DNA from: Aequorivita lipolytica
GTDB lineage: Bacteria; Bacteroidota; Bacteroidia; Flavobacteriales; Flavobacteriaceae
Direction: 5' to 3'
Assembly: GCF_007997135.1 (NCBI RefSeq)
Contig: NZ_VORU01000004.1
Coordinates: forward strand, 186,001 to 250,000
Length of the DNA stretch: 64,000 bases
Shown here: positions 2,935 to 34,436 of the stretch, piece by piece
How positions within the stretch are numbered: the stretch's first letter is position 1
Layout of the letters: every line of letters starts with the position of its first letter
Program-made: the position numbers and the translations under genes
Notes under the pieces: generated by a model
Told to the model about the DNA's origin: nothing
The model's database searches: none
Seen by the model: the letters and a program-made list of their open reading frames with translations, nothing else

Positions 2935-2983
2935 ACTGATTACTGCGAACTGAATACTGACCACTGAATACTGATTACTGAAA
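2935..2983 (+). repeat. Heptamer array (ACTGNNN x7) abutting a start codon
   Basis: Seven consecutive 7-bp units begin with ACTG: ACTGATT, ACTGCGA, ACTGAAT, ACTGACC, ACTGAAT, ACTGATT, ACTGAAA. The array stops one base before the ATG of the acyltransferase gene. Decayed ACTG units, partly on the other strand, also appear downstream of that gene at about 3793-3855. No coding sense is seen. It belongs to the window-wide set of period-7 arrays. Confidence 0.85.
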
Positions 2984-2984
2984 A

Positions 2985-3788
2985 ATGAGTCTCTTCAAAA
3001 AAAACCCATTTGGGCATGCACTTTTTTTAAAACTCTGGTTGATACGTATCGCCGGGCTTTTAACGCACAGGCGGTTTAAAGGTTTCAACGATCTTCAAAT
3101 TCACGGTAGTGAAATTATAAGAGCGCTTCCAGAAAAAAATGTTCTCTTTGTGAGCAACCACCAAACCTATTTTGCAGATGTTGCCGCGATGTTGCACGTC
3201 TTTAACGCAAGTTTAAAGGGACGAGATGACAATATTAAAAACGTAGGTTACTTATGGAATCCAAAGCTGAACATCTATTTTGTGGCTGCAAAGGAAACAA
3301 TGAAAGACGGCCTCTTGCCTAAAATACTTGCGTATGCGGGTTCGGTAAGTATAGAGCGCACTTGGCGCGAAAAAGGAAAAGAAGTGAATAAGCAAGTGAA
3401 GATGAGCGATGTGAGTAACATTACAAAGGCTTTGAACGATGGTTGGGTTATCACTTTTCCACAGGGAACCACGAAGCCGTGGAAACCAATACGTCGCGGA
3501 ACAGCTCACATTATTAAACAAAACAAACCTGTCGTGGTTCCTATTGTAATTGACGGTTTCAGAAGATCTTTTGACAAAAAAGGTATCAGAATTAAGAAAC
3601 GCGGCATTCTTCAATCTATTGAAATAAAACCACCCCTTGATATAGATTACGAAAACGAAACAATGGACCAAATTGTTGAGAAATTGGAATACGCCATCGA
3701 GCAGCATTCTTCTTTCCTTAAAGTAATTCCAAGAACCGAGATTCAAAGCGAAGAAGAGCTCAACAAAGAGCGTGAATGGCGTTATTAA
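2985..3788 (+). CDS. 1-acyl-sn-glycerol-3-phosphate acyltransferase-like (PlsC family)
   Basis: This 267-residue protein has the PlsC acyltransferase layout: block I FVSNHQTYFAD, block III FPQGTTKPW and a following VVVPIVIDGF strand. PlsC enzymes transfer an acyl chain to lysophosphatidic acid, or to related lyso- or amino-lipids, at the inner membrane. Two departures from the textbook motif are visible. The catalytic His is separated from Asp by five residues instead of four, and the usual FPEGT has Gln for Glu. These changes suggest a Bacteroidota-specific subfamily, and the acceptor lipid is uncertain. The ATG follows directly after the heptamer array. Confidence 0.8.
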   Translation: MSLFKKNPFGHALFLKLWLIRIAGLLTHRRFKGFNDLQIHGSEIIRALPEKNVLFVSNHQTYFADVAAMLHVFNASLKGRDDNIKNVGYLWNPKLNIYFVAAKETMKDGLLPKILAYAGSVSIERTWREKGKEVNKQVKMSDVSNITKALNDGWVITFPQGTTKPWKPIRRGTAHIIKQNKPVVVPIVIDGFRRSFDKKGIRIKKRGILQSIEIKPPLDIDYENETMDQIVEKLEYAIEQHSSFLKVIPRTEIQSEEELNKEREWRY

Positions 3789-3862
3789 AAAAGTATTCAG
3801 TGGCAGTTGGCAGTGCTTTACCTAAAGAAAATGATTACTGAAACTGCAGACTGCTTCTTCTT

Positions 3863-4507
3863 TTACATTTCTATTTTCTTCAGTTCTTTATAGTTTTTAT
3901 TGAGTTTTCTCATTAAAATTCCATAAACAATTCTGTAGAATAAAATTATGAAAACAATCATCACGATTCCAAAAAGGATTTGAATCAAAAAGAAAATATT
4001 CATAAATTTTTCTTGTGAAATGCTTGCAATGCCGTAATCTTCAATCATAAATTTAAATACGATGTCTTGGTTTAGGTAATAGAAAATATTAATTCCTATT
4101 ATCAAAATGATGCAGGCTGTAATGTTATAAACCACAAAATATTTTACCGTTTTGCGTGTTTGCAAAATATTCCTCATTAATTCTTTGATGGAATCTGTAG
4201 TGGAAATTTTACGGTAGTTTCTATAAAATAGAAAAATGAACACCCCAAAAATTGAATAGTTTACCACATTAACGCCTATTAAAATATTATGCAGACCTAT
4301 GTCATCACTAAATTTTCTGCTAGATTCTGGCACGAAAAAGGCGAGTAGCGTCCAGAAAATAATTTCGGCTATACTGATATAAAAAATCCATTTTACTATG
4401 GAAGATGATTTCTTCAACAGCATTTTATAGATATCATCATAAGTAAGCTTAGGAAGCTCCTGCTCCCTACTTTGCCATTGTTTTTTTAATAATTCTAGTT
4501 GATCCAT
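3863..4507 (-). CDS. Four-TM membrane protein, probable anti-sigma partner
   Basis: This 214-residue protein has a soluble N-terminus of about 35 residues (DQLELLKKQWQSREQELPK, then TYDDIYKMLLKKSS) and four predicted membrane helices near residues 37-59, 73-95, 121-144 and 171-196. The W-Q-x-R motif and this topology recur in Bacteroidota proteins encoded directly after an ECF sigma factor. Its ATG lies 6 nt past the end of the sigma gene, so the pair is almost certainly one transcript. A role in holding the sigma factor at the membrane is inferred from position. No zinc-binding HxxxCxxC motif is present. Confidence 0.65.
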   Translation of the reverse strand: MDQLELLKKQWQSREQELPKLTYDDIYKMLLKKSSSIVKWIFYISIAEIIFWTLLAFFVPESSRKFSDDIGLHNILIGVNVVNYSIFGVFIFLFYRNYRKISTTDSIKELMRNILQTRKTVKYFVVYNITACIILIIGINIFYYLNQDIVFKFMIEDYGIASISQEKFMNIFFLIQILFGIVMIVFIILFYRIVYGILMRKLNKNYKELKKIEM

Positions 4508-4513
4508 AATATG

Positions 4514-5008
4514 TTACGGATTTATAATAGTTCGTAATTTTTCCTTTATCCTGTTCATTTTCACACGTGCATTTACTTCGGTAATACCTAAGGTTTCAGA
4601 AATCTCTCTATAATTTTTGTCTTCTAAATAAAGAAAGACAAGCGCTTTATCAATATCGTTTAGATCCTTAACGGCACTGTACATCAACTTTAATTGTTGT
4701 TCTGCAGTATCATCGTACGGTACCGAAGAAATTTTAAAACTAACCCCTTCATAATCTTGGGTTTTTATGCTGCGCTTGGATTTTCTGTAAAGTGTAATGG
4801 CCGTATTTAATGCCACGCGGTACATCCAGGTGCTGAATTTGGAATCGCCACGAAACTTTGGGTACGCACGCCAAAGCTGAATGGTTATTTCCTGAAACAG
4901 GTCGTTGTGCGCGTCGCTGTCATTGGTATATAGCCTACAGATTTTATGTACAATGTTTTGATTTTCCTCAAGTTGGGTTACAAAACTATGTTCCAGTTGT
5001 TTATTCAA
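4514..5008 (-). CDS. RNA polymerase ECF sigma factor
   Basis: This is a 164-residue sigma-70 family protein of ECF size. Region 2 includes DLFQEITIQLWRAYPKF followed by FSTWMYRVALNTAI, which covers core binding and -10 recognition. Region 4 carries the helix-turn-helix in NYREISETLGITEVNARVKM for -35 recognition. There is no region 1 or 3. The gene is followed 6 nt later by the four-TM protein, the usual sigma/regulator order. Upstream of the start is a divergent gap of about 110 nt towards the NDH-2 gene. The target regulon cannot be read from the window. Confidence 0.92.
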   Translation of the reverse strand: MNKQLEHSFVTQLEENQNIVHKICRLYTNDSDAHNDLFQEITIQLWRAYPKFRGDSKFSTWMYRVALNTAITLYRKSKRSIKTQDYEGVSFKISSVPYDDTAEQQLKLMYSAVKDLNDIDKALVFLYLEDKNYREISETLGITEVNARVKMNRIKEKLRTIINP

Positions 5009-5120
5009 TTGCTTTTGTTGCTGTTTAGTTAGTACTTACTTAAGACCCTTTGTTACAAAAATCCTAAAAAATACCTTAACTCTTTTCAGTATGATTAACT
5101 TTATGAAAATATAAAAACAA

Positions 5121-6395
5121 ATGAACATTCCTGAAACTAGTCTTCCACGAATTATAGTAATAGGAGGCGGATTTGCCGGTATTTCTTTTATAAAAAAACT
5201 TCAAAAAGAAAAGGTTCAAATAATACTTTTTGACCGTCACAATTACCATACTTTTCAGCCACTGCTGTACCAAGTTTCCACAGCAGGGCTCGAGCCAGAT
5301 TCTATAGCATATCCGCTTCGGAAAATTTTCAGGACAAAAATGGATTTTCACTTTAGAATGGGTGAGGTTGAAAATATAGATACAGAAAACAATACAATTT
5401 CTTCGTCCATCGGAAACTTGAAGTTTGATTACCTAGTAATTGCCACAGGCACGCGCACCAACTTTTTCGGAAATGAAAATATTGCTGAAAACAGCATGCC
5501 AATGAAGACGATTCCGCAAGCGCTAAACATTCGTAGCTTGATGCTTCAAAATATTGAAAAAGCAGATATTACTACAGATGAAACCGAAAGAAAACGTTTG
5601 TTGAACTTCGTAATTGCAGGTGCAGGCCCAACGGGAGTAGAGCTTGCAGGTGCTTTGGCAGAATTCAGAAAGGGAATTCTTGAACACGATTACCCAGAGC
5701 TAGAAGAAGAAGAAATGAACGTTCACCTTATAGAAGGACTTGATAGGGTGCTGCCGCCCATGAGCGAAAAGGCTTCGGAAAAAGCACAGAAATTTCTGGA
5801 AAAACTTGGCGTACAAATTCATCTAGAAACTTTTATAAGCGATTACGACGGAAAAACGGTCACTACCAGAGACGGTCAAAAATTTGAAACCGCTACCTTT
5901 ATTTGGGCAGCAGGTGTAACCGGAGCACCCATAAAAGGAATAAGTGGCGATGCGCTTGTGGAAAAAGCCAATCGGTACAAAGTTGATGAATGCAACAAAA
6001 TATTAGGTTTTGAAAACATTTATGCTTTGGGCGATATTGCCATGATGCAAACTGAGGAATTTCCAAAAGGCCATCCGCAAGTTGCACAGCCAGCCATTCA
6101 GCAAGGAAAGCATTTGGGAAAAAATTTCAGAAGAATGCTGAAAGGCGATAAAATGGAACCATTTGAATATTTCGACAAAGGAACCATGGCTACCGTTGGT
6201 AGAAACAAAGCGGTAGTAGATATTGGCAAACTACACTTTGGCGGGGCCATTGCTTGGTTTTTATGGATGTTCGTTCATCTGTGGTTTTTGGTGGGTTTTA
6301 GAAATAGAGTTGTAACATTTTTTAATTGGACATACAGTTACATAAATTATGATCGTGCGGCGCGATTAATTATTAGGCCGTTTAAGAAAAGTTGA
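5121..6395 (+). CDS. ndh: Type II NADH dehydrogenase (NDH-2)
   Basis: This 424-residue flavoprotein has two Rossmann signatures. FAD binding is at IIVIGGGFAGISFI near residue 11, and NADH binding is at VIAGAGPTGVELAGALAEF near residue 165. The NDH-2 quinone-site region AQPAIQQGKHLGKN lies near residue 320. The C-terminal 60 residues (IAWFLWMFVHLWFLVGFRNR and on) form the amphipathic membrane-attachment segment. The enzyme passes electrons from NADH to quinone without pumping ions. Length and motifs match bacterial NDH-2. The stop codon (6393-6395) lies inside the first unit of a heptamer array. Confidence 0.9.
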   Translation: MNIPETSLPRIIVIGGGFAGISFIKKLQKEKVQIILFDRHNYHTFQPLLYQVSTAGLEPDSIAYPLRKIFRTKMDFHFRMGEVENIDTENNTISSSIGNLKFDYLVIATGTRTNFFGNENIAENSMPMKTIPQALNIRSLMLQNIEKADITTDETERKRLLNFVIAGAGPTGVELAGALAEFRKGILEHDYPELEEEEMNVHLIEGLDRVLPPMSEKASEKAQKFLEKLGVQIHLETFISDYDGKTVTTRDGQKFETATFIWAAGVTGAPIKGISGDALVEKANRYKVDECNKILGFENIYALGDIAMMQTEEFPKGHPQVAQPAIQQGKHLGKNFRRMLKGDKMEPFEYFDKGTMATVGRNKAVVDIGKLHFGGAIAWFLWMFVHLWFLVGFRNRVVTFFNWTYSYINYDRAARLIIRPFKKS

Positions 6396-6453
6396 AAGTT
6401 GAAAGTTGAAAGTTCAAACCTGCAACCTGCAACCTGCAGCCTGCAACCAGCAA
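6391..6453 (+). repeat. Heptamer array (GTTGAAA / CCTGCAA families)
   Basis: Nine consecutive 7-bp units run without a phase break. They are GTTGAAA x3, GTTCAAA, CCTGCAA x2, CCTGCAG, CCTGCAA and CCAGCAA. The array starts within the last codons of ndh (the TGA is in the first unit) and lies between convergent genes. The unit sequence switches midway but the 7-bp register is kept. Confidence 0.85.
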
Positions 6454-6456
6454 AAC

Positions 6457-6786
6457 TTACTCAACTCTAACCTTAATTGGCCCTCCATTGGAAACCCAAC
6501 CACCTCCAATTTCGTCAATGTTCACATCCAGTTCGTCCGTTGTTTCAATTTTTTTGATGTTTACTTTCACTTCATCATACGTGTCAACGCTTTTTAGATT
6601 TACATTCAATTCATCTGAGGTGTTGATGTCAACCAAACGTACATCTATTACTTCAGTAATGGGTTTTTGGGTTGCTTTTTCACTCGCATAAGCCGAAGGG
6701 ATGATGTCAAAGTCCTTTGCCACGTTAATGGTTAAGCAAATAGCAATTATCGTCAAAATGATTTTTGTGTAGTTGTCTGTTTTCAT
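6457..6786 (-). CDS. Small exported or membrane-anchored protein with an internal repeat
   Basis: This 109-residue protein has one N-terminal hydrophobic segment (IILTIIAICLTINVA, residues about 9-23), which is either a signal or an anchor. The rest is acidic and carries three degenerate copies of a roughly 14-residue unit: VDINTSDELNVNLKS, VDTYDEVKVNIKK and IETTDELDVNIDE. It ends with a Gly-rich stretch (IGGGWVSNGG). The alternating polar/aliphatic pattern suggests stacked beta strands. I do not know a function. Short proteins of this type occur in Flavobacteriaceae. It lies 60 nt upstream of nothing co-directional except the cyclase gene's own promoter region, so it is probably monocistronic. 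Confidence 0.6.
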   Translation of the reverse strand: MKTDNYTKIILTIIAICLTINVAKDFDIIPSAYASEKATQKPITEVIDVRLVDINTSDELNVNLKSVDTYDEVKVNIKKIETTDELDVNIDEIGGGWVSNGGPIKVRVE

Positions 6787-6845
6787 ATTTTTAAGTTTAT
6801 AAGTTTATAAGTTTAATAGTTATGATGGGGATGGGTTAATTTAAA

Positions 6846-7961
6846 TTACTTTTTCAGATAAGTAACTAGTTCAATCTCCTCGCTTTTTCCACGTAGTTTT
6901 TCTTTTCCCAGTTCCTTTTTTGTCACTCCTTTTGGCAGTTTATATGCTATATCTGCAAATTGTTTGGAGGCCAGAATTTCAACATCTAGTTCGTTGCACA
7001 TTGCTTGAATTCGCGATGTAGTATTTAAAACATCGCCAGAAAAAGCAATGTCGCGTTTTATTTGTCCAATTTCACCGACCATCACCGTTCCGTAATGAAG
7101 GCCAACTTTAAATTCGGGAACAACGCCGTATTTTTTCAAATATTTAGGAGCTTTATAGGCAATTATTTTTTTCATACTATAAAAACACTGAACGGTGTTT
7201 CCGCGTTTCAATCCCCATTTCATTTTCCATGAAACAACCACCTCATCGCCTACGTATTGATAGACCTCGCCTCTGGTTTGCACAATTGCGGTTGCAATAT
7301 GCCTAAAAAAATCCTTCAAAAAATTGAAGTATTTTTCTTCGCCCAAACGTTCTGCAATACCTGTGGCATTTTTAATATCGGCAAACATAAAAATACGCCG
7401 TTCGTGCTTGGGTCTAAAATATCTTCCTATTAAATAATCTGGAAAAACTCCCGGCCCGTACTTATCATTCACCATCAAAACGATGAGCGTTACTAAAACG
7501 ATAAACAACCAAATAATATAATTTTTGATAAATAGCCAAGAACCAAAAAAATATAATGTTTGCTGAAGTACTTCCCAAGAATAAAACGGAACGCCCAGGT
7601 CTTCACTTGTTATGTATATGGAGCCAAAGGAGCCAACCAAAAAAGCCGTAAAGGTATAGGCAATGATTAAATAGAGTAGCGCTTTCCAAAAAACTAAACG
7701 CCGCAGCCAGCGCTCCATTAGGTTTACGGTAACAATTCCACCGATGAGACCCGCTGAAATGGCAACAATTAGGTTTGCCATCACTGCGGAGTAAAAATCA
7801 TAACTGGAACTAAGTACTCCATTGCTTTTTAGAGTGATGTACTCATAAAAAAACATAATATTTGATATGATAACCCAGGCTATCAAGATCCAGAAAGCCC
7901 GACGCGTATAAAACAACAGCTGACGCGTGTTGTATCTTTCAAAATTTGGTTTAATGGCCAT
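6846..7961 (-). CDS. Membrane-bound class III adenylate/guanylate cyclase
   Basis: This is a 371-residue protein. Residues 1-165 hold about four to five membrane helices. Residues about 188-345 form a class III cyclase domain. Both metal-binding aspartates are present (Asp195 in FADIKNAT and Asp239 in QYVGDEVV), and the transition-state Asn/Arg pair is seen in NTTSRIQ (about 313-317). The enzyme would make a 3',5'-cyclic nucleotide on the cytoplasmic face in response to a signal sensed by the membrane part. The residues that decide ATP versus GTP do not match a textbook pattern, so I leave the substrate open. The similar layout in Flavobacteriia proteins supports the assignment. Confidence 0.87.
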   Translation of the reverse strand: MAIKPNFERYNTRQLLFYTRRAFWILIAWVIISNIMFFYEYITLKSNGVLSSSYDFYSAVMANLIVAISAGLIGGIVTVNLMERWLRRLVFWKALLYLIIAYTFTAFLVGSFGSIYITSEDLGVPFYSWEVLQQTLYFFGSWLFIKNYIIWLFIVLVTLIVLMVNDKYGPGVFPDYLIGRYFRPKHERRIFMFADIKNATGIAERLGEEKYFNFLKDFFRHIATAIVQTRGEVYQYVGDEVVVSWKMKWGLKRGNTVQCFYSMKKIIAYKAPKYLKKYGVVPEFKVGLHYGTVMVGEIGQIKRDIAFSGDVLNTTSRIQAMCNELDVEILASKQFADIAYKLPKGVTKKELGKEKLRGKSEEIELVTYLKK

Positions 7962-8111
7962 TTAAAATTTTTGTGTTTGATAGAGAAATCCTTTTTTCTG
8001 AAAGCATCAGCTATTCTTTTCTTTCGAAGATACAATTCCATTTCTTACTTCATAGAAAAACAGTATTGAATTTTTTTTAAAGTCGAGTAAACGCTGCAGG
8101 GTCATGATGTA

Positions 8112-8288
8112 ATGATGGCGAAACGGAAAATGTCCCTAAACGAACTTTCTGAAAAAGTGGGATTAACACTTTCAAATCTCTCCATTTTAAAAACAGGAAA
8201 AGCAAAAGCGGTGCGCTTCAGTACGCTGGAAGCTATTTGTGAAGTATTGGAATGTCAGCCCGGAGATATTTTGGAATTTGTTGAGTGA
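8112..8288 (+). CDS. Mini Cro/CI-type HTH regulator (YozG-like)
   Basis: This is a 58-residue frame, ATG at 8112 and TGA at 8286-8288. It contains a complete XRE helix-turn-helix (SLNELSEKVGLTLSNLSIL, then LEAICEVLECQPGDILEF), typical of the small YozG-like DNA-binding proteins. Homologues usually begin about nine residues earlier, with a strand ending DVMMAKRKM. Here HDVMMAKRKM is present in frame, but the preceding stretch hits a TAA at 8088-8090 without an ATG. The N-terminal strand is therefore lost or uses a rare start. It stands alone between the cyclase and the TonB receptor gene. Its target is unknown. Confidence 0.75.
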   Translation: MMAKRKMSLNELSEKVGLTLSNLSILKTGKAKAVRFSTLEAICEVLECQPGDILEFVE

Positions 8289-8423
8289 TTTTTTTTAACA
8301 TAAATTCTATTACAAAATGGAATATTACAGTTGAGCAATCTATTTTCACAGTTCGGTCTGTTTTTTTCTGAAAAGATATATTGAAATTTCACCTTTGAAC
8401 TGAAAATTAAAACCAACCAACTC

Positions 8424-10577: not shown

Positions 10578-10641
10578 TCTCCCTAGCCCCCAAAGTGGAA
10601 ATTCATTCATGGCTCCTCCCTCTGGGGAGGCTGGGAGGGGA
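10577..10641. repeat. C/G-rich inverted repeat element (REP-like)
   Basis: This is a 65-bp element in an otherwise AT-rich gap. Its ends are imperfect inverted copies: GTCTCCCTAGCC at the left and GGCTGGGAGGGGAC at the right. A second dyad, CCTCCC/GGGGAGG, lies inside (about 10614-10630). Elements of the pattern CCTCCCC(a)AGCC...GGGGAGG recur between genes in many Bacteroidota genomes. It follows the TonB-receptor stop immediately and may act as a transcript 3' end. Confidence 0.55.
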
Positions 10642-10746
10642 CAAAACACAATTCAACCCACATATTCAACAATTGGGTAAATGTATTTTTTCAAAAGAAA
10701 TATTTTAAAGGAAATTTGAATCAGTTAAATATTAAAACATATAATT

Positions 10747-14337: not shown

Positions 14338-14347
14338 TATCTATTTT

Positions 14348-14437
14348 CAACCATCAACCATCAACCATCAACCATCAACCATCAACCATCAACCATCAAC
14401 CATCAACCATCAACCATCAACCATCAACCATCAACCA
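14348..14437 (+). repeat. Perfect heptamer array CAACCAT x12.9
   Basis: Twelve uninterrupted copies of CAACCAT (14348-14431) plus CAACCA (14432-14437) end four bases before the ATG of the LytTR response-regulator gene at 14442. All copies are identical, so the array is young or homogenised and prone to slippage. Each length step changes the distance between any upstream promoter and the start codon by 7 bp. Confidence 0.92.
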
Positions 14438-14441: not shown

Positions 14442-15197
14442 ATGAACGCATTAATAATTGAAGATGAAAAACCATCAGCTCGCTATTTGCAACGTATGCT
14501 AGAAAGGCAGGATGTAAACGTAAACCAAATGCTGCACAGCGTTAGCGAAGCTGTGGAATGGTTTAATAATAATGAGCACCCGGACTTGATTTTTCTAGAC
14601 ATTCAGTTGAGCGACGGACTTTCCTTTGAAATTTTTGATACTGTTGAGGTTAAAAGTGCAATTATTTTCACCACCGCTTTTGACGAGTATGCACTTCAGG
14701 CTTTTAAACTGAACAGTATTGATTATTTGTTAAAGCCTATTGATGAAGAAGAGCTACAAGCCGCTGTTACAAAATATAAATCCTTCAAACCAAGCACGGA
14801 AAACCTTCAATTTAATTTTGAGGATATTAAAAAACTGCTCGTAAATCCTGTGGAGCGCGAATACAAAAAACGGTTCACTACAAAAATAGGGCAGCATATA
14901 AAAATCATTTCAATAGAGGAGATTGAGTGTTTCTATTCTGAAAATAAGGGAACATACGCGCATACTGTGGACGGCCGCGATTATCTTTTGGAAACTACTT
15001 TAGAGCAACTTGAGCAGGAGCTTTCACCAGAAACATTTTTTAGGATCAGCCGTAAATTCTATGTAAATATTAATTCAATAAAAGATATAATTTCGTATAC
15101 AAATTCACGCCTTCAGTTGAAACTTAATAGCTTTAAGGAACAAGAAGTTATTGTAGCCCGCGAACGGGTTAAGGGTTTTAAACTTTGGTTGGAATAA
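14442..15197 (+). CDS. LytTR-family response regulator
   Basis: This is a 251-residue regulator. Residues 1-120 form a receiver domain with the acidic pocket (IIEDEK), the phospho-acceptor Asp53 in LIFLDIQLSDG, and the Thr/Lys switch positions (IFTTAFDEYALQAF, then DYLLKPID). Residues about 145-250 are a LytTR DNA-binding domain (FTTKIGQHIKIISIEEIECFY, then FFRISRKFYVN). It would be phosphorylated by the LytS-like kinase at 11961 and bind direct repeats at target promoters. The ATG lies directly behind the CAACCAT array. The next gene is convergent and begins 2 nt after its stop. Confidence 0.92.
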   Translation: MNALIIEDEKPSARYLQRMLERQDVNVNQMLHSVSEAVEWFNNNEHPDLIFLDIQLSDGLSFEIFDTVEVKSAIIFTTAFDEYALQAFKLNSIDYLLKPIDEEELQAAVTKYKSFKPSTENLQFNFEDIKKLLVNPVEREYKKRFTTKIGQHIKIISIEEIECFYSENKGTYAHTVDGRDYLLETTLEQLEQELSPETFFRISRKFYVNINSIKDIISYTNSRLQLKLNSFKEQEVIVARERVKGFKLWLE

Positions 15198-26503: not shown

Positions 26504-26608
26504 TTATAAATCTATTTTATTAGCCATTGAACTTATAAACATAATTTATTAGTCTTTAGGCTTATAAATGTATTTTATTAGCTTTTAAGCTAATAAATTT
26601 ATATATTT
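26504..26608 (+). repeat. 29-bp tandem repeat, three full copies plus a partial fourth
   Basis: Copies span 26504-26532, 26533-26561 and 26562-26590, each beginning TTATAAA and containing TTTATTAG at a fixed place. A fourth partial copy begins at 26591. The third/fourth junction forms a near-perfect dyad (TTTATTAGCTT, two bases, AAGCTAATAAA; 26574-26597). The array fills the gap upstream of the SatD-like gene and overlaps its promoter, which points to a multi-site operator. Confidence 0.85.
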
Positions 26609-26625: not shown

Positions 26626-27312
26626 ATGAATTATTCTGTTATTTCTGGAGATATTGTTTCGTCAACAAGTTTAAACGTTGAAGACAGCAAATTTGTTGAA
26701 GAAAGCTTAAAAACCTTACTTCAAGATTTAAAGAGAGAATTCAATGTTTATGGCCGCATTATAAAAGGAGATTATTTGGAATGTGTTGTTCCCAACCCTA
26801 GTGAGGGTCTGCAAGTGGCATTGGCCATTAAAAGTTTTGTGAAGGCAATTCCTATAGACATCAAGAAATATACAAAAGATGATAATCGGCTAAAACAATT
26901 CAGAATCCACGGAATAAGACTCGCAATTGGCTATGGCGAACTAAGCCGTTACAATCCCGAAGAAGGTGTAATAGACGGTGAAGCTATTTATTTTGCAGGT
27001 CGTGAAATTAGTGGTGAAACTACTTACAACAAAGAAAGGATCGTAATTAAGAATACGCTCTTTTTTGCTTCTAAAAACGAGGATTTAAATAAAAATATCC
27101 AACCTTTACTTGCGCTGCTAGATGTTTTATTGAGTAAAGCAACCTCAAGACAGTGCGAAGTTTTATATTTAAAATTGATGAATAATCAAGAGGAAGAAAT
27201 AGCCAAGCAGCTAGGCATTGGTCAATCTGCCGTCAACCAGCATTCCACAAGTGTAGGCTGGAACGCCATTGATGAAGCCGTAAACTATTTTAAAACGATG
27301 ATTTCAAAGTAG
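26626..27312 (+). CDS. SatD-like protein: cyclase-fold-like domain plus C-terminal HTH
   Basis: This is a 228-residue protein. Residues 1-150 follow the order of class III cyclase landmarks: SGDIVSST (Asp9, like the first metal Asp), IIKGDYLECVV (Asp49, like the second), IRLAIGYGEL (97-106), and GEAIYFAGRE (118-127, like GxxVNxAxR, with the catalytic Asn replaced by Tyr). Residues about 173-205 are a helix-turn-helix (QEEEIAKQLGIGQSAVNQHS). It is followed 5 nt later by a DUF3307 membrane protein, the recurrent SatD/DUF3307 pairing. I infer a ligand-sensing transcription factor, possibly autoregulating through the upstream repeats. Enzymatic activity is doubtful. Confidence 0.7.
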   Translation: MNYSVISGDIVSSTSLNVEDSKFVEESLKTLLQDLKREFNVYGRIIKGDYLECVVPNPSEGLQVALAIKSFVKAIPIDIKKYTKDDNRLKQFRIHGIRLAIGYGELSRYNPEEGVIDGEAIYFAGREISGETTYNKERIVIKNTLFFASKNEDLNKNIQPLLALLDVLLSKATSRQCEVLYLKLMNNQEEEIAKQLGIGQSAVNQHSTSVGWNAIDEAVNYFKTMISK

Positions 27313-27317
27313 AAACT

Positions 27318-28022
27318 ATGGGATTAAAGGAATTAGTACTGCTCCAATTTATTGCACATTTATGTTTGGATTACTTTTTTCAAACAGATAAACTGGCAAA
27401 GCAGAAAAATACAATCGGTTTTAAAAGTTCTTTTTTATATTGGCACGGATTGGCGTGTTTTGCTTTAGCGTGGTTGTTTTCTTTGCAACTAAGTTTCGCC
27501 TTTGCAGCAGCAATAATTGCAATAACTCACTTTTTAATAGACGGTTTTAAGCGTTATCTAAATAATAGCAAGAATTTTGGTCGATACGCTTTTTTTATAG
27601 ATCAAGCTGCGCACTTGGCCATTCTAACATTGGTAGTTATTTTATATGAAAGATGGAACGGTATAAATCTATCAGTGGACGTATCTATAAATTTCAAATA
27701 CTTACTTATAGTAACAGGATATTTAGTGTGCTTAAAACCTGCAAATATCTTTATAAGAGAAGTTTTTAAAGTTACCGAAATACAAGTAAGTAGCGATAAT
27801 GAAATGCCCAATGCTGGAAAGGTTATCGGCGTTTTGGAACGCATTTTAACACTCACATTAATTATAGTTTTGCAATATTCAGCCGTAGGTTTTTTGATTG
27901 CCGCAAAATCAATATTGCGCTACGGGAACAACGAAACCTTAAAAACAGAATATGTGCTTATTGGCACAATGCTCAGTTTCGGAATTGCCGTAATTGCTGG
28001 AATAATTATTAACTTCTTCTAA
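27318..28022 (+). CDS. DUF3307 integral membrane protein
   Basis: This is a 234-residue protein with about six hydrophobic segments. The N-terminal half carries the DUF3307 pattern: LLQFIAHLCLDYFFQTDKLAKQK, then HFLIDGFKRYL and FFIDQAAHLAIL. Its conserved His and Asp residues lie within or near the membrane helices (H-x-x-x-D and D-Q-x-x-H), which suggests a buried metal or catalytic site. The family has no established function. It is encoded directly after the SatD-like gene and should be co-transcribed. The following tilS gene starts 6 nt later, so tilS may be read from the same promoter. Confidence 0.8.
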   Translation: MGLKELVLLQFIAHLCLDYFFQTDKLAKQKNTIGFKSSFLYWHGLACFALAWLFSLQLSFAFAAAIIAITHFLIDGFKRYLNNSKNFGRYAFFIDQAAHLAILTLVVILYERWNGINLSVDVSINFKYLLIVTGYLVCLKPANIFIREVFKVTEIQVSSDNEMPNAGKVIGVLERILTLTLIIVLQYSAVGFLIAAKSILRYGNNETLKTEYVLIGTMLSFGIAVIAGIIINFF

Positions 28023-28028
28023 ATTAAA

Positions 28029-29345
28029 ATGAAGTTACAAGCTCTCTTCGAAAAAAATATAAAAATAAATTTCCCTTTCTTAATTGGGGAAAAACTACTC
28101 ATTGCTTGCAGCGGGGGTCTGGACAGCGTTGTTTTAACTCATTTAATGAAGCAATTGGAATGCGAGATTGCTTTGGCGCACTGCAATTTTTCGCTCCGCG
28201 GAAAAGAAAGCGATGGCGATGAAATGTTTGTAATCGGTTTGGCAAAAAGCTTAGAAATCCCTGTTTTTGCTGAAACTTTTGATACCAAAAAATTTGCCGA
28301 AGAACATAAAATTTCAACGCAAATGGCGGCACGCGACTTGCGCTACAATTGGTTTGCTGAAATTTTAAAGGATTTTAAATACGACTATTTATTGACCGCC
28401 CATCACTTGGATGACGATTTGGAAACCTTTTTCATAAACCTTACCCGAGGTACAGGATTGAACGGACTTACAGGAATTCCGAAGGAAAACAACAAAATAA
28501 TCAGACCGCTTTTAAAATTTTCAAGACAGGAAATTTTGCAATATGCTGAAACAAATAATTTTAAATGGCGCGAAGACAGCAGCAACCAAAAGACAGATTA
28601 TCTTCGGAATAAACTGCGGTTAGAAGTATTGCCGAAATTTAAGGAAACCAACGAATCTATTCTTAAAAACTTTCAAAAAACCCAGCAAAACCTACAAGCT
28701 TCACAAAATCTCATTGATGATTATATGGGATTGGTTTTCAAGCTTGTTATTTCCGGAGGTTCTAATTCTTATAAAATCAACATACAAAAACTCAAAGAAT
28801 TACCCAACACAGATGCCTTGCTCTATGAATTATTGCACGGTTTCGGCTTTACGGAATGGGACGATGTTTCAAATTTGCTAGATGCACAAACTGGTAAAAT
28901 GGTTTTTTCAAAAACACATCAACTTTTAAAGAATCGAGATGAATTAATTTTGACAGAAATTTCAGATGAGAATATTTCCGAAGAATTTTTAGTTCCAAAA
29001 ACGGGAATAACTTCACCAATTAATTTGAAAATAGAAACTTCAAAATACATTGGCGAAACCGAAAAAAATTTAATTTACATTGCTTCGGAAAAATTAAAAT
29101 TTCCTTTAAAACTGAGAAAGTGGAGGAGTGGCGATAGTTTTCAACCTTTCGGGATGAAAGGAAAAAAGAAGCTGAGTAAATTCTTTAAAGACGAAAAAAT
29201 TCCTTTAACCGAAAAAGAAAAAATCTGGCTACTATTAATTGACGATCAAGTAGTTTGGGTAATCGGTCACCGAATGGACGACCGTTTCAAAGTAACCGAA
29301 AATACATCTGAAATACTAAAAATATCATATTTAAAAAATAATTAA
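28029..29345 (+). CDS. tilS: tRNA(Ile)-lysidine synthetase
   Basis: This is a 438-residue enzyme. The N-terminal PP-loop ATP pyrophosphatase domain has ACSGGLDSVVLTHLM near residue 27 (SGGxDS). It is followed by HCNFSLRGKESDGDE, HHLDDDLETFF, RPLLKFSRQEI and DSSNQKTDYLRNKLR. The C-terminal domain has LRKWRSGDSFQPFGMKG and KLSKFFKDEKIP, the TilS_C substrate-binding region. It lysidinylates C34 of the CAU anticodon of tRNA-Ile2 so that AUA is read as Ile, and it is essential in most bacteria. The length is normal. Confidence 0.95.
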   Translation: MKLQALFEKNIKINFPFLIGEKLLIACSGGLDSVVLTHLMKQLECEIALAHCNFSLRGKESDGDEMFVIGLAKSLEIPVFAETFDTKKFAEEHKISTQMAARDLRYNWFAEILKDFKYDYLLTAHHLDDDLETFFINLTRGTGLNGLTGIPKENNKIIRPLLKFSRQEILQYAETNNFKWREDSSNQKTDYLRNKLRLEVLPKFKETNESILKNFQKTQQNLQASQNLIDDYMGLVFKLVISGGSNSYKINIQKLKELPNTDALLYELLHGFGFTEWDDVSNLLDAQTGKMVFSKTHQLLKNRDELILTEISDENISEEFLVPKTGITSPINLKIETSKYIGETEKNLIYIASEKLKFPLKLRKWRSGDSFQPFGMKGKKKLSKFFKDEKIPLTEKEKIWLLLIDDQVVWVIGHRMDDRFKVTENTSEILKISYLKNN

Positions 29346-29354
29346 AACTAAAAA

Positions 29355-31199
29355 ATGAGAGCATTAAGGATATTAGCAATTATATTATTTATAAGTTTCG
29401 TTTCATTTGCGCAAGATGAAAACTTTGTAAAAGAAAATTATAATAAAACCGAAACCACAATCACGATGCGTGATGGCGTGAAACTTTTTACCGTAATCTA
29501 TTCGCCAAAAGATACTTCAAAAAAGTATCCAATACTTTTTCAAAGAACTCCCTACAGTTGTGCACCTTATGGCGAAGATCAATTTCGTTCCAAAATTTCG
29601 CCCAATGAATTTTTAATGAAGGAAGGTAATATTGTAGTTTACCAAGATGTGCGTGGTCGCTGGATGAGTGAGGGCGTTTATGATAATATGCGCGCTTACA
29701 TCCCGAATAAAACGGGAACCCAATTTGACGAAGCCAGCGATACTTATGATAGTATTGATTGGATGATAAAAAACATTGCCAACAATAACGGAAATGTAGG
29801 AACTTGGGGCATTAGCTACCCAGGTTTTTATGCAACATATTCATTATTAGATTCGCATCCGGCATTAAAGGCTGTTTCACCACAAGCGGCAATTGGCGAT
29901 TTCTTTTTTGATGATTTTCATCACAATGGTGCTTATTTATTGAGTTATTGGCGCATAACACCATTATTTGGTCACGAAAAAACAGAACCTACAGATAAAC
30001 CGTGGTTTAATTTTCCTGAGTTGGGAACTAAAGACCAATATCAATTTTTCTTAGACGCTGGACCGTTGAGCAATCTTGATACATATTATAAGGAAGATAA
30101 CGTATTTTGGCAACAATTAAAAGACCATCCAAATTATGATGAATTCTGGCAATCGCGCGGAATTATTCAGCATTTAAAAGATATAAAACCTGCCGTAATG
30201 TTTGTAGGTGGCCTTTTTGATGCCGAAGATCTTTATGGGCCTTTCAACGCATATCAAGCAGTAGAAAAGAACAGTACAAATTACAATACTATTGTTTTCG
30301 GCCCTTGGAGCCACGGCGATTGGGCACGCCCAACTAAAAGGCAGGCTATTGGAAATATATATTTTGGTGATAATATTTCAATCGATTATCAACGTGATGT
30401 TGAAACGAAATTTTTCAACCGTTTCTTAAAAGAAAATGGAAATGAAGATACCACTTTGCCAGAAGCGTATATGTTTGAAACTGGAACCAATCAATGGAAA
30501 TCTTATACGCAATGGCCACCACAAAACACCGAAAAGAAGGCGTTTTTTCTTCAAAGTAACCAGCGTTTGAATGACAAAGAAGAAAAAAGCAGTTCGTTTG
30601 AAGAATTCGTAAGCGACCCTAAAAAGCCAGTGCCTTATTCCGAAGATATAAAAATGGTTTTCACACCTAGAAAATATATGACGGACGATCAACGTTTCGC
30701 CGCGCGCCGTCCAGATGTATTGGTTTTTGAAACTCCAGTTTTGACTGAAGATATTACAATGACGGGATCAATTCTTGCAAAACTAATGGTCTCAACCACT
30801 GGAACAGATGCAGATTGGATTGTAAAAGTGATTGATGTTTTTCCTCCCGATGCCGAAGATTATCCAGAAACACAGGAATACTTAAAGATGAGTAATTATT
30901 TTATGATGGTAAGAAGTGAAGTAATGCGCGGACGTTTCAGAAATAGTTTTAGTAATCCCGAGCCTTTTATTCCGAACGAAAAAACAGCGGTTAATATAAC
31001 CCTTCAAGATGTAAACCATACTTTTAAAAAAGGACACAAAATTCAAATTCAAGTGCAAAGTACTTGGTTTCCTTTAATAGATTTAAACCCACAAACCTTT
31101 ATTCCAAATATATTTAAAGCCAAAGAGGAAGATTTCAAAAAGCAAACGCACAAAGTTTATAATGATTCCTCAATAGAATTTACAGTACTAAAAAACTGA
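29355..31199 (+). CDS. CocE/NonD family alpha/beta hydrolase, exported
   Basis: This is a 614-residue protein with a signal peptide (MRALRILAIILFISFVSFAQ). The alpha/beta-hydrolase core starts TTITMRDGVKLFTVIYSPKD. The nucleophile elbow is GISYPGFY (Ser near residue 155), and the Asp and His of the triad are expected in GGLFDAEDLYGPF and FGPWSHGDW. The C-terminal 200 residues form the jelly-roll domain of X-Pro dipeptidyl-peptidase S15/CocE relatives (ITMTGSILAKLMVSTTGTDAD). It would cleave an ester or peptide bond in the periplasm or outside. The substrate is unknown. A transcription terminator-like hairpin follows 16 nt after the stop. Confidence 0.88.
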   Translation: MRALRILAIILFISFVSFAQDENFVKENYNKTETTITMRDGVKLFTVIYSPKDTSKKYPILFQRTPYSCAPYGEDQFRSKISPNEFLMKEGNIVVYQDVRGRWMSEGVYDNMRAYIPNKTGTQFDEASDTYDSIDWMIKNIANNNGNVGTWGISYPGFYATYSLLDSHPALKAVSPQAAIGDFFFDDFHHNGAYLLSYWRITPLFGHEKTEPTDKPWFNFPELGTKDQYQFFLDAGPLSNLDTYYKEDNVFWQQLKDHPNYDEFWQSRGIIQHLKDIKPAVMFVGGLFDAEDLYGPFNAYQAVEKNSTNYNTIVFGPWSHGDWARPTKRQAIGNIYFGDNISIDYQRDVETKFFNRFLKENGNEDTTLPEAYMFETGTNQWKSYTQWPPQNTEKKAFFLQSNQRLNDKEEKSSSFEEFVSDPKKPVPYSEDIKMVFTPRKYMTDDQRFAARRPDVLVFETPVLTEDITMTGSILAKLMVSTTGTDADWIVKVIDVFPPDAEDYPETQEYLKMSNYFMMVRSEVMRGRFRNSFSNPEPFIPNEKTAVNITLQDVNHTFKKGHKIQIQVQSTWFPLIDLNPQTFIPNIFKAKEEDFKKQTHKVYNDSSIEFTVLKN

Positions 31200-31215
31200 A
31201 ATAGCTATAAAAAAA

Positions 31216-31240
31216 GAATCCCGACCAATGGTCGGGATTC
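31216..31240. terminator. Strong hairpin after the CocE-like gene
   Basis: An 11-bp perfect stem, GAATCCCGACC / GGTCGGGATTC, has a 3-nt loop AAT. The A-run lies on its left side (a T-run if read on the minus strand), while only CTT follows on the right. Placement just after the CocE-like stop suggests a transcript 3' end, but the T-run polarity is unusual. Confidence 0.55.
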
Positions 31241-31368
31241 CTTAACAAACCTAACTTAGTAAACTTTAAAGTGCACTAAGAATATTTTCTATCCCCACAA
31301 AAAATATTGCTTTGTGCATTATCCACTAATTCTATGATTCAAATATAAGGCAGGGAATCAATTTATAC

Positions 31369-31388
31369 TATACGTACTTACACGTATA
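31369..31388. promoter_or_regulatory. Inverted repeat upstream of pfkA
   Basis: TATACGT and ACGTATA are 7-bp inverted arms separated by 6 nt (ACTTAC). The dyad lies 20 nt upstream of the putative pfkA -33 box, a sensible activator position. The binding protein is unknown. Confidence 0.45.
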
Positions 31389-31407
31389 TTTTAGTGATTA
31401 AAATCAT

Positions 31408-31437
31408 TTTGAATTGAAAACAATAATAGTAACTTTC
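31408..31437 (+). promoter_or_regulatory. Putative pfkA promoter
   Basis: TTTG (31408-31411), an 18-nt spacer, and TAACTTTC (31430-31437) match the Bacteroidota -33/-7 pattern TTTG...TAnnTTTG with one mismatch. The ATG of pfkA follows 5 nt after the -7 box, which would make the mRNA nearly leaderless. Confidence 0.45.
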
Positions 31438-31442
31438 CAATT

Positions 31443-32426
31443 ATGAAAATACCAAAGAAAATCGCCATTCTAACAAGTGGGGGAGATGCCCCAGGAATGA
31501 ACGCCGCAATAAGAGCCGTTGTTCGGGCTTGTACGTATTATAACTTGGAATCTGTTGGGATTTATCGTGGTTTTGAAGGTTTAATTGAGGGTGATTTTAA
31601 GGAACTTGACGCGCGTTCGGTAAAAAATATAATCAACCGTGGCGGTACATTTCTGAAATCTTCCCGTTCCGAGGAATTCAGGACAGAGGAAGGAAGAAAA
31701 AAAGCTTTCAACAATCTGCAAAATGAAAACATAGATGCCTTAGTGGTTATTGGCGGTGATGGTACTTTTGCAGGAGCTTCTGTTTTTATAAAAGAATTTA
31801 ATTTTCCAATTGTTGGTCTTCCCGGTACAATAGATAATGATATTAACGGAACAGATTATACCATTGGGTATGACACTGCATTAAATACTGTAGTTGAAGC
31901 GATTGATAAAATTCGTGATACTGCAAATTCACACAACCGTCTTTTTTTGGTTGAAGTAATGGGTCGCGACGCGGGAGATATTGCGTTGAACGCAGGTATT
32001 GGCGCTGGAGCAGAGGAAATTTTGATCCCCGAACAGAATATGGGGCGTGAACGCTTGCTGGAATCTTTAAGCCGAAGTAAAAAATCTGGAAAAACTTCAA
32101 GTATAGTAGTTGTTTCCGAAGGAGATCAAATAGGAAAAAATATCTTTGGACTGGCTAAATATATAGAAGAAAATTTAAAGGAATATGAAGTAAAAGTTAC
32201 AGTACTCGGGCACATTCAGCGCGGCGGCTCGCCAAGTTGTTACGATCGCGTGCTTGCAAGCCGTTTGGGCGTTGGCGCAGTAGATGCACTTTTGCGTGGG
32301 GAAACAAATGTTATGATTGGAATTATTCACAACAAAGTTACCTCAGTTCCATTTTCAGAGGCGATAAAAGGTAACAATGAAATTGACGAAGATTTAATTC
32401 GCGTGGCAGATATCATTTCGATTTAA
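31443..32426 (+). CDS. pfkA: ATP-dependent 6-phosphofructokinase
   Basis: This 327-residue enzyme has the bacterial PfkA signature throughout. It shows the ATP-site loop TSGGDAPGMNAAIRA, GGDGTF with the preceding ALVVIGG, the catalytic PGTIDNDINGTDYTIGYDTA, the substrate-site EVMGRDAGDIAL and the effector-side GHIQRGGSPSCYDRVLASRLG. It phosphorylates fructose-6-phosphate, the committed step of glycolysis. Glycine after GGDG (GGDGT) marks an ATP-using type. It opens a run of carbohydrate genes (pfkA, gap, a sugar kinase, pgi), all co-directional. Confidence 0.96.
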   Translation: MKIPKKIAILTSGGDAPGMNAAIRAVVRACTYYNLESVGIYRGFEGLIEGDFKELDARSVKNIINRGGTFLKSSRSEEFRTEEGRKKAFNNLQNENIDALVVIGGDGTFAGASVFIKEFNFPIVGLPGTIDNDINGTDYTIGYDTALNTVVEAIDKIRDTANSHNRLFLVEVMGRDAGDIALNAGIGAGAEEILIPEQNMGRERLLESLSRSKKSGKTSSIVVVSEGDQIGKNIFGLAKYIEENLKEYEVKVTVLGHIQRGGSPSCYDRVLASRLGVGAVDALLRGETNVMIGIIHNKVTSVPFSEAIKGNNEIDEDLIRVADIISI

Positions 32427-32515
32427 GGGATGCTTGATGACAGAGGGCGGATGGCCGTTGAAAAATAAAAGTTTAAGCAATAACATCATTGAATTAGTTA
32501 TAACTGCGATGCAAA

Positions 32516-32550
32516 CGATTAACATTTAACAAATAACGATTAACAGAAAA
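32516..32550 (+). repeat. Heptamer array before gap
   Basis: There are five 7-bp units in register: CGATTAA, CATTTAA, CAAATAA, CGATTAA, CAGAAAA. The array ends three bases before the ATG of gap at 32554. The units are degenerate, but the period of 7 and the position next to the start codon match the other arrays in the window. Confidence 0.7.
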
Positions 32551-32553
32551 GGA

Positions 32554-33549
32554 ATGATAAAAATAGGAATTAACGGTTTTGGCCGAATAGGGCGTTTAGC
32601 CTTCAGAATAGCTTCACTTAGAAAAGATATTGAAATTGTCGCAGTAAACGATTTGTTAGATGTGGACCATCTTGCTTACTTATTGAAATATGATTCTGTT
32701 CACGGAAAATATCCCGGAAAAGTGGAAGTGAAAAACGGAAATTTAATGGTTGATGGAACTAAAATTCGAGTTACTTCAGAAAAAAATCCCGAAAATTTAA
32801 AGTGGGATGAAGTTGGCGCAACCATTATTATAGATTGCACCGGAATTTTTAAAGACATTGATTCAGCTTCGGCACATTTAAAAGCTGGAGCTAAAAAAGT
32901 TGTGCTTTCCGCACCTTCAAAAACGGCTCCAATGTTTGTGATGGGTGTAAACCACAAAGATGTAAAAGCGACCGATACAATTATTTCAAACGCTTCGTGC
33001 ACCACAAATTGTCTAGCGCCAATGGCAAAAATAATAAATGACGAATACGGAATTGTTGAAGCTTTAATGACCACAATACATTCTGTCACGGCCACACAAT
33101 CCACTGTAGACCAGCCTTCAAAGAAAAATTATCGCTTGGGAAGAAGTGCATTGAGCAACATAATTCCAACAACCACAGGCGCAGCCGTTGCGGTAACGAA
33201 AGTAATTCCAGAGTTAAAAGGAAAAATCACAGGAATGGCTTTTCGGGTGCCAACTACAGATGTTTCGGTAGTAGATTTAACGGTTCGCATTAAAAAACCA
33301 GCTACTTATGAAGAAATTAAAGCACTTTTCAAAAGAGCTTCTGAAAACGAATATCACGGAATCGTAAACTATACCGAAGATGAAGTTGTTTCACAAGATT
33401 TCGTTTCAGACCCGCACATTTGTACCTTTGATGCCAACGCTGGCATTGCACTTAATGATAATTTCTTTAAGTTAGTGGCTTGGTACGATAACGAATACGG
33501 CTATTCCGCAAAACTTGTAGATCTCGCCGCTCACGTTGCAACTTTATAA
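32554..33549 (+). CDS. gap: Glyceraldehyde-3-phosphate dehydrogenase, type I
   Basis: This is a 331-residue enzyme. The NAD-binding motif [13 protein letters not shown] is at the N-terminus, and the catalytic Cys149 lies in [12 protein letters not shown]. The His of the relay follows in [14 protein letters not shown], and [15 protein letters not shown] is the closing signature. It oxidises glyceraldehyde-3-phosphate to 1,3-bisphosphoglycerate with NAD+. Leu-Leu-Asp after VAVNDL fits an NAD-preferring enzyme. The adjacent sugar kinase gene starts 3 nt after its stop, so they are co-transcribed. Confidence 0.96.
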
Positions 33550-33552
33550 ATT

Positions 33553-34410
33553 ATGACCCTAATAACCGACGGCGGTTCTACAAAATGCGATTGGGTATTG
33601 CTGGATAATAGCGGCAATGTGGTTTTTAAAACCGCTACTTCCGGGTTAAATCCTACAGTAGTCCCGAAAGAGGAATTGTTGCTTCGCATTACTTCAAACG
33701 AAGAATTAAAAAATGTTTTTGAAAAGATTGAAGTCCTCGATTTTTATGGCGCCGGCTGTGGCACGATTACGCCACGAAGTATTTTAAAAGAAGTTTTGGA
33801 AGAACTGTTTCCACAGGCAAAAGTTAGCGTTTCAGAAGATTTGTCGGCCGCTGTTTTTTCAGTAACCGCTGAAGCTGGAATAGTTTGTATTCTGGGAACG
33901 GGTAGCAACAGTTGCTATTTTGATGGCACTGAGATTCACGCTCCAATCCCCGCTCTAGGTTATATTTTGATGGATGAGGCTAGTGGAAATTACTTCGGAA
34001 AAAGATTGATTCGCGATTATTTTTACAACCAAATGCCAGCAGAAATTGCTGCGGAATTTAAGAGTCGTTTTAATTTGGAAGCAGACGAGATAAAAATGAA
34101 TCTCTACAAAAAACCCAATCCCAACGCATATTTGGCGTCATTTGCGCAATTCATATTTACACAGCAAGAAATAAACCCATACTTTTACGCGCTGATTAAA
34201 GAAGGCATTTCAAATTTTATTGAATGTCGCATTCTTTGTTACGAAAAAGCCCGCGAAGTTCCAGTCCATTTTATTGGAAGCATCGCGCATTTTTCGGAAA
34301 AAATTATAAAAGAATGTTTTGCAGAACATAATCTTGAACTTGGCAATATCGTCCAAAGACCAATTGATGGACTAATTGATTATTATAAAAACAGCATTCA
34401 AAAATCATAA
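33553..34410 (+). CDS. N-acetylglucosamine kinase-like (BadF/BadG/BcrA ATPase) protein
   Basis: This 285-residue protein has the ASKHA sugar-kinase fold. The phosphate-1 motif is LITDGGSTKCDWVLLD at the N-terminus, GAGCGTI follows near residue 67, and the phosphate-2 region VCILGTGSNSCYFDG lies near residue 117. An adenosine-side motif HFIGSIAHFSEK lies near residue 238. The family includes N-acetylglucosamine and glucosamine kinases. The substrate here is probably an amino sugar, recycled from peptidoglycan or chitin, which would feed into the adjacent pgi/pfkA genes. Its last codons overlap the first unit of the heptamer array before pgi. Confidence 0.8.
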   Translation: MTLITDGGSTKCDWVLLDNSGNVVFKTATSGLNPTVVPKEELLLRITSNEELKNVFEKIEVLDFYGAGCGTITPRSILKEVLEELFPQAKVSVSEDLSAAVFSVTAEAGIVCILGTGSNSCYFDGTEIHAPIPALGYILMDEASGNYFGKRLIRDYFYNQMPAEIAAEFKSRFNLEADEIKMNLYKKPNPNAYLASFAQFIFTQQEINPYFYALIKEGISNFIECRILCYEKAREVPVHFIGSIAHFSEKIIKECFAEHNLELGNIVQRPIDGLIDYYKNSIQKS

Positions 34411-34436
34411 ATCTAAAATCATCAATCGGAAATTAA
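34402..34436 (+). repeat. Heptamer array before pgi
   Basis: There are five 7-bp units in register: AAATCAT, AAATCTA, AAATCAT, CAATCGG, AAATTAA. The array starts inside the last codons of the sugar-kinase gene (its TAA is 34408-34410) and ends two bases before the pgi ATG at 34439. Confidence 0.75.

Follow-up and report, generated by a model that had tools for sequence, protein, structure and literature searches.

The stretch of DNA analyzed here, hereafter the window, comprises 64,000 nt of the Aequorivita lipolytica genome (3.31 Mb in 47 contigs; positions 186001-250000 of contig C30) and carries five short tandem arrays whose units differ in sequence while sharing a 7-base step. These are probably heptanucleotide simple-sequence arrays, with some octanucleotide counterparts, that arise by slippage-like duplication in steps of 7-8 bases and are tolerated where the length of the gap between genes is free. 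All five had been listed in an original prediction made from the same letters, and direct reading of the sequence confirmed each of them in place. The first, seven ACTGnnn units at 2935-2983 on the forward strand (sequence reading and Tandem Repeats Finder, TRF), occupies the 5' leader of a PlsC-type acyltransferase gene (ATG at 2985), with a NUDIX gene as its upstream neighbor (Pfam). The second, at 6388-6453 (sequence reading, TRF and array scan), consists of three to four GTTGAAA units followed by five AACCTGC units and is assigned to no strand. It lies in a convergent gap between an NDH2-like oxidoreductase gene and a gene that Pfam does not match; the forward-strand NDH2-like gene has its stop codon (6393-6395) inside the first unit of the array, the reverse-strand gene has its stop at 6457, and no start codon stands beside the array. 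The third (14347-14437, forward strand) contains 13 CAACCAT units with an AACC core; its neighbors are a 2TM-domain gene on one side and, on the other, the gene for a LytTR response regulator (ATG at 14442). The fourth, four TAACnnn units at 32520-32547 on the forward strand (predicted at 32516-32550), sits between the phosphofructokinase (pfkA) and gapA genes (Pfam), upstream of the gapA ATG at 32554. The fifth (34403-34436, forward strand), with four AATCnnn units and one decayed unit, includes the stop codon (34408-34410) of the upstream BadF-type gene, an assignment below the Pfam curated cut-off, and ends 2 bases before the phosphoglucose isomerase gene pgi (Pfam; ATG at 34439).

TRF scores were 53-182 for the first three arrays and 37-47 for the fifth, and the fourth was not reported by this program. 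In the window, an array scan with a threshold of 12 returned only the second and third arrays and one 8-base array, and the others (first, fourth and fifth) were picked up by a scan for at least four units with a fixed 4-base core. Rfam gave no match at its gathering score in the window, so that by this search the leader arrays correspond to no known structured RNA element.

The period was measured in a sample of A. lipolytica consisting of the window and 39 further stretches (784 kb, about a quarter of the genome), with genes called by a simple script that accepted ATG starts only. Figures termed unbiased leave out the window and six stretches that were chosen in the knowledge that they held CAACCAT matches. 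Autocorrelation in the 350 unbiased gaps (68.9 kb), scored against dinucleotide shuffles, reached a z score of 16.9 at lag 7, 10.3 at lag 8, 9.5 at lag 14 and 5.9 at lag 21. No other lag from 1 to 30 rose above 5.7; lags 3, 6 and 24 gave 5.0-5.7, lag 15 gave 4.3, and lags 5, 19 and 26 were negative (-3.4 to -4.9). As the original prediction had anticipated, lag 7 stands far above shuffled intergenic sequence. Coding DNA showed mainly the codon period, with lag 7 slightly raised (0.262 versus 0.256-0.259 at lags 4, 8 and 10). Samples of 400 kb from three congeneric genomes gave lag 7 z scores of 8.7, 12.4 and 5.8, with lag 6 matching lag 7 in G007 (8.8) and, in G008, lag 21 exceeding lag 7 (9.7) and lag 8 absent (-0.2).

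Counts of discrete arrays agree with these measurements. Non-coding DNA of the A. lipolytica sample held 69 arrays of period 7, 21 of period 8 and 19 of period 14, and 13 spread over the remaining periods of 4-13, while shuffled gaps yielded at most 0.6 arrays per repetition at any period. Only 5 period-7 arrays were coding. For periods 7, 8 and 14 together, non-coding arrays numbered 109 in A. lipolytica and 24, 26 and 16 in the three other genomes, and coding arrays 9 and 0, 1 and 2, respectively. The fixed-core scan (at least four units) found 117 period-7 runs in the gaps of the four genomes, 82 degenerate and 35 near-perfect, compared to about one per shuffle. Within long arrays, the identity between units falls with the distance between them (0.892, 0.876, 0.839, 0.823 and 0.811). 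As 7-base tandem units in excess of both chance and other unit lengths, and mostly non-coding, these arrays are heptanucleotide simple sequence repeats. The step common to arrays of differing unit sequence, first seen in five places, holds in the sampled quarter of the A. lipolytica genome and in the samples of the three congeneric genomes, and because it does so whatever the unit sequence, a common generating process is likely.

The diversity of units also bears on whether arrays are born locally. Units might instead be copied from one locus to another through ectopic recombination or template switching, as the 17 matches of the CAACCAT array in the A. lipolytica genome, the recurrence of units between loci (AACCATC in 7 and AAAGCCT in 5 of 97 sampled A. 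lipolytica arrays) and the mosaics of several units within one gap could suggest. Such spread is quite unlikely to be the general source, given the 61 distinct units among those 97 arrays.

The original prediction had further held that one mechanism places or selects the arrays against start codons, four of the five named arrays ending 1-4 bases before an ATG. Placement was assessed by randomly re-placing each array within its own gap in 2000 simulations, using 104 arrays outside the biased stretches (44 from A. lipolytica and 60 from the three other genomes). Starts were taken as the first ATG, some of which are bound to be wrong; the gene caller missed the NUDIX gene ahead of the ACTGnnn array, and the first, fourth and fifth window arrays fall below the array-scan threshold. 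Array ends lay within 5 bases of a start in 13 of 104 cases compared to 11.9 expected (801 of 2000 simulations reached or exceeded the observed count), within 10 bases in 16 compared to 16.2, and within 20 bases in 21 compared to 24.0. Array ends are therefore unrelated to starts in the sampled genomes, random re-placement yielding as many start-adjacent ends, and positioning against start codons is highly unlikely; of the proposed single mechanism, the common generating process remains likely and the placement is not supported. Any proposal of a translational role for arrays just before start codons needs this control for gap length.

A real excess was found at the other edge of the gaps. A stop codon lay within 5 bases of 31 of the 104 arrays compared to 13.4 expected (none of 2000 simulations), within 10 bases of 32 compared to 18.1, and within 20 bases of 38 compared to 26.1. 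Stop proximity was 22 compared to 15.1 for all A. lipolytica arrays (36 of 2000 simulations) and 22 compared to 10.1 for the other three genomes (0 of 2000). The unbiased A. lipolytica arrays alone showed no excess at either edge within 10 bases (starts 9 compared to 8.2, stops 10 compared to 8.0). Array density was 0.50-0.51 per kb in convergent gaps, 0.38-0.74 in tandem gaps and 0.31-0.38 in divergent gaps, so that convergent gaps, which are without any start, bear arrays about as densely as tandem gaps do. Start adjacency is what short gaps yield anyway. A further rule, in which stop-side arrays would be the reverse-complement type of start-side arrays and point to end-addition at breaks, held by 20 to 5 with 2 equal in A. 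lipolytica (C versus G) and was dropped when the other three genomes gave 12 to 8 with 2 equal and the unbiased pool 20 to 12 with 4 equal.

Arrays that do lie next to starts have a distinctive composition. Among those no more than 20 bases from a start, C exceeded G in the sense strand in 16 of 18, and leaders with start-adjacent arrays folded more weakly than other leaders (-3.08 versus -5.93 kcal/mol; n = 21 versus 1032, p 0.0004, uncorrected for composition). Part of this G-poorness is background, because array-free gap sequence near starts also favors C over G (about 0.16 versus 0.11). A study of Bacteroidetes translation describes genes without Shine-Dalgarno sequences, tuned by leader structure and with AUG under-represented near starts (PMC6847099), and the G-poor, weakly folded start-side arrays fit the leader rules described there.

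Comparison across the genus showed that the core of an array can persist at orthologous positions. Among the matches listed, the closest gapA relative was an Aequorivita metagenome-assembled genome (93% identity), followed by relatives at 74-78%. Orthologous gaps of other congeners carry the same cores as the window arrays. A 4-base core was scored as recurrent when the final 90 bases of a leader held it at least three times with a spacing of 7. ACTG was recurrent by this measure in 14 of 28 leaders of the acyltransferase gene, AACC in 9 of 27 of the response-regulator gene and AATC in 6 of 25 of pgi, with values of 0.005, 0.01 and 0.025, respectively, in shuffled leaders. In some species, the orthologous response-regulator leader has about 3-10 CAACCAT copies, versus 13 in A. 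lipolytica; the leaders of other species carry AAACCTG or AAACCAG arrays or no array. TAACnnn runs related to the array before gapA were present in gaps of G022 and G023. The acyltransferase leaders of G002 and G026 are 98% identical and differ by two ACTG units, or 14 bases. Such whole-unit changes of copy number (this 14-base difference and the range of about 3-13 CAACCAT copies) were seen between species, each represented by one genome.

Persistent cores of this kind raise the alternative that start-adjacent heptad arrays are selected leader elements, kept for translation initiation or for binding by an RNA-binding protein; MacGregor made this proposal for TAACTGA repeats. The recurrence of ACTG, AACC and AATC at orthologous sites far above shuffles, the G-poor and weakly folded state of start-adjacent arrays, and one leader of another genus with four ACTG units at the same place (L327) all argue for it. 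Nevertheless, arrays are not in excess at starts, the core differs at each locus, and the step is also found after stops and in convergent gaps. Of the 20 closest acyltransferase leaders from other genera, the remaining 19 are without a 4-base chain of three. In four alignable leader pairs, 5 changes fell in the core versus 2 in the spacer, which, on few changes, points to a core without recent protection. Selection of start-adjacent arrays as leader elements is, on balance, unlikely.

Four-fold degenerate sites of the acyltransferase gene are nearly saturated (median identity with A. lipolytica 0.38 versus 0.31 for random sequence). Some acyltransferase leaders (L270, L272 and L277; L268, L273 and L274) are 92-95% identical between species, with only 0.40-0.48 identity at the four-fold sites of the gene. 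Four-fold sites were accordingly rejected as a neutral yardstick for the gaps, since leaders much more alike than these sites leave no clean clock.

A 20-kb syntenic block compared with 20 other species connected the arrays to gap length. Arrays of period 7 or 14 were confined to three gaps, each of variable length: the gap between the 2TM-domain and response-regulator genes (28-160 bases; array in 7 of 20 rows, A. lipolytica included), that between pfkA and gapA (22-127 bases; array above threshold in 1 of 21 rows, A. lipolytica not among these) and that between the BadF-type gene and pgi (2-127 bases; array in 2 of 17 rows). The gaps of steady length in this block (123-150, 194-213 and 82-91 bases) held no array in any row.

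In many degenerate arrays, the constant part of the unit is a contiguous 4-base core followed by three free bases. This layout was examined in runs of at least four units with four positions fixed and the other three each varying, counting one run per gap over the five possible core layouts, with a flat expectation of one fifth per layout and p values that treat counts as independent, which is only roughly so. Raw counts (65 contiguous versus 28, 28, 13 and 11) were discarded as inflated by array ends, since the last unit of a perfect array is incomplete, a bias that simulation reproduced; the corrected test leaves the free letters of that unit out of account. Contiguous cores then made up 15 of 25 runs in the three other genomes (5, 2, 3 and 0 for the other layouts; p 1.4e-5) and 11 of 29 in A. 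lipolytica (4, 4, 7 and 3 for the other layouts; p 0.02), or 26 of 54 in both sets together (joint p 3e-6). Three of the 11 A. lipolytica cases are the window arrays that raised the idea. Leaving out the window gives 8 of 26 (p 0.13, not significant; joint p 4.5e-5), and leaving out all seven biased stretches gives 4 of 13 (p 0.25; joint p 3.5e-5). With at least five units, the A. lipolytica excess is weak (4 versus 3, 2, 1 and 2) and the other genomes keep theirs (9 versus 1, 0, 1 and 0). Contiguous cores were also foremost for core lengths of 3 and 5. Of the 26 gaps with the layout, 3 were convergent, so that it is not solely a start-codon feature. Counts were few in 17 syntenic stretches (contiguous 1 versus 0, 1, 2 and 0); the contiguity of mismatches in 58 stronger arrays was borderline, with 12 of 200 permutations reaching the observed value; and a 5+3 layout of the 8-base arrays is suggestive (5 versus 1, 0, 0, 3, 1 and 0). 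Frequent cores, from the uncorrected list, were AATC, AAAT, AAGA, ACTG, CAAC, CAAA and AATT.

These counts invite a more specific reading, in which Aequorivita heptad arrays would follow a 4+3 grammar: a locus-specific contiguous tetranucleotide, kept across species, recurring at 7-base intervals and separated by three free bases. It could be the footprint of a particular enzymatic or replication step in which 4 bases re-anneal before an advance of 7 (in octamers perhaps 5 and 8). Alternatively, it could reflect a feature of a protein or of the ribosome that reads each seventh base regardless of the core. Because A. lipolytica without the window does not support the layout, we regard this grammar as doubtful.

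Slippage-like duplication would be the simplest source of the arrays, by analogy with what is proposed for bacterial heptamers (PMC4679880, PMC4692102); bacterial satellite families derived from heptamers and hexamers are likewise attributed to local duplication errors in a survey of prokaryotes (PMC6749651). A slippage-like process may duplicate DNA 7 or 8 bases at a time, and in multiples of 7, repeatedly making and reshaping arrays from any short local seed. Each locus would have its own unit because arrays start from whatever short seed is present. The step itself looks intrinsic, because it is seen in every gap class and with many sequences. Arrays would persist only where gap length is free, being rare in genes and kept out of gaps of fixed length, and the rules they appear to follow may be rules of tolerance: frame in genes, spacing in promoters and no added AUG before a start. 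They would be scarce in coding DNA because a 7-base step breaks the frame; they may begin inside the last codons of a gene because duplication across a stop is presumably harmless, the first stop still working; and they would have to end before a start codon because duplication across it would add an out-of-frame AUG. Near starts, translation may filter the arrays so that the G-poor, weakly folded ones stay. The 4-base core could be the microhomology that re-anneals in slippage, with units that keep the core going on duplicating and others dying out.

Several results weigh against slippage with tolerance as the whole explanation. The stop-side excess comes from the other three genomes, with none in the unbiased A. 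lipolytica subset (10 compared to 8.0 within 10 bases). Length-variable gaps upstream of 17261, 19579 and 31443 were free of arrays in all rows of the syntenic block. Plain duplication with random point mutation, which in simulation was flat over the five core layouts, predicts no contiguous 4-base core, and the data show 26 of 54. The ACTG core recurs at the acyltransferase leader across species whose four-fold sites are nearly saturated, which is not easily compatible with unselected drift and leaves room for selection at that leader; leaders far more alike than these sites indicate either local exchange between species or strong constraint. Finally, the results fit polymerase slippage and another duplication route alike.

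Much of this has precedent. As described in PMC4679880 and PMC4692102, Mrazek (2007) found period 7 to be the commonest long unit among long simple sequence repeats in most repeat-rich genomes and proposed polymerase slippage. Aequorivita shares the prominent period and the proposed source but differs from that description in having many units per genome, many of them degenerate with a 4-base core, and an additional 8-base class. MacGregor (2015) described TAACTGA direct repeats in Beggiatoaceae, Cyanobacteria and five Bacteroidetes including A. sublithincola, located in gaps and in many cases just before start codons, with 7-base step differences between two Cyanothece strains; other heptamer repeats were noted beside the A. 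sublithincola sets (PMC4679880). Heptamer arrays in gaps, before start codons too and in A. sublithincola, are already in print. The TAACTGA system as described there has one dominant unit, with most sets in the main genome facing a start codon, whereas the Aequorivita arrays have varied units and no excess at starts (16 of 104 within 10 bases versus 16.2). TAACTGA is the unit in none of the five window arrays; a TAACTGA/TACCTGA array was found in G022 (L215).

Rehm (2015) studied G-rich heptamer repeats of Xanthomonas and Nostoc, GGGAATC or GGGGA(T/C)T, as possible quadruplexes (PMC4692102). They are described as intergenic heptamers with extensive variation in length and sequence between two relatives, mostly between the same gene pairs, as in Aequorivita; unlike them, the Aequorivita arrays are G-poor near starts. 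The same source cites three different tandem heptanucleotides in the cyanobacterium Calothrix PCC7601. By description, Calothrix and Aequorivita are alike in carrying several heptamer units in one genome. The Calothrix repeats are presumably those named STRR. Less ordinary are the contiguous 4-base core with three free bases in degenerate arrays and the persistence of that core at orthologous leaders, and no report of mixed-unit 7/8-base arrays or of a 4+3 layout in the Aequorivita group was found in the searches made of open-licence papers. Why heptamers dominate long bacterial microsatellites is unsettled, a polymerase footprint being the published guess. The gap arrays of Aequorivita, nearly all of 7- or 8-base step regardless of sequence and, where degenerate, tending to keep a contiguous 4-base core, make that guess testable, as a large number of independent arrays each give a reading of core length and step.

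Outside the genus, the array phenomenon looks patchy. Among 80 loci around gapA, the best 80 of at least 587 relatives, 6 loci held a total of 11 gap arrays with period 7, 8 or 14, and the pooled lags gave a weak lag 7 (z 2.1) beside lag 6 (7.0) and lag 21 (7.3).

Two further arrays in the window had not been listed in the original prediction. Read from the sequence, a GATGnnn-type run of five units (GATG, GATG, GAGG, GATG and GTTG; 32429-32463, forward strand) stands directly after the pfkA stop, and an 8-base array at 6788-6815, TAAACTTA on the reverse strand, ends 1 base before the ATG of the reverse-strand gene 6457-6786. Elsewhere in A. lipolytica, a 4.3-kb contig with one called gene (L021) is dense in period-7 and period-8 arrays and possibly marks an assembly break in a repeat-rich region. 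At 321-750 of L025, mixed heptamers (CATTGCA, CTAATCA and others) form a block that recurs three times in about 430 bases as a higher-order repeat.

The acyltransferase leader also contains a promoter-like sequence, TTATTTTAGTATATTTG, just after the NUDIX stop (window 2851-2867) and visible in most congeneric leaders of this gene (L265-L292). This promoter-like sequence is of the TAnnTTTG type. TAnnTTTG occurs in 20 of 20 acyltransferase leaders from other genera (L323-L342). Most of the leader behind the motif turns over.

A tandem repeat of a different kind, with a 29-base unit, lies at 26504-26602 of the window, flanked by the genes for a chorismate-binding enzyme and a SatD-like protein (the latter below the Pfam cut-off). 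Its core, TTTATTAG...CTAATAAA, is an imperfect inverted repeat, and it is possibly a candidate protein-binding array. The gap that holds it measures 102-103 or 132-133 bases in most congeneric rows, as if containing 3 or 4 copies, and 115-124 bases in the remainder.

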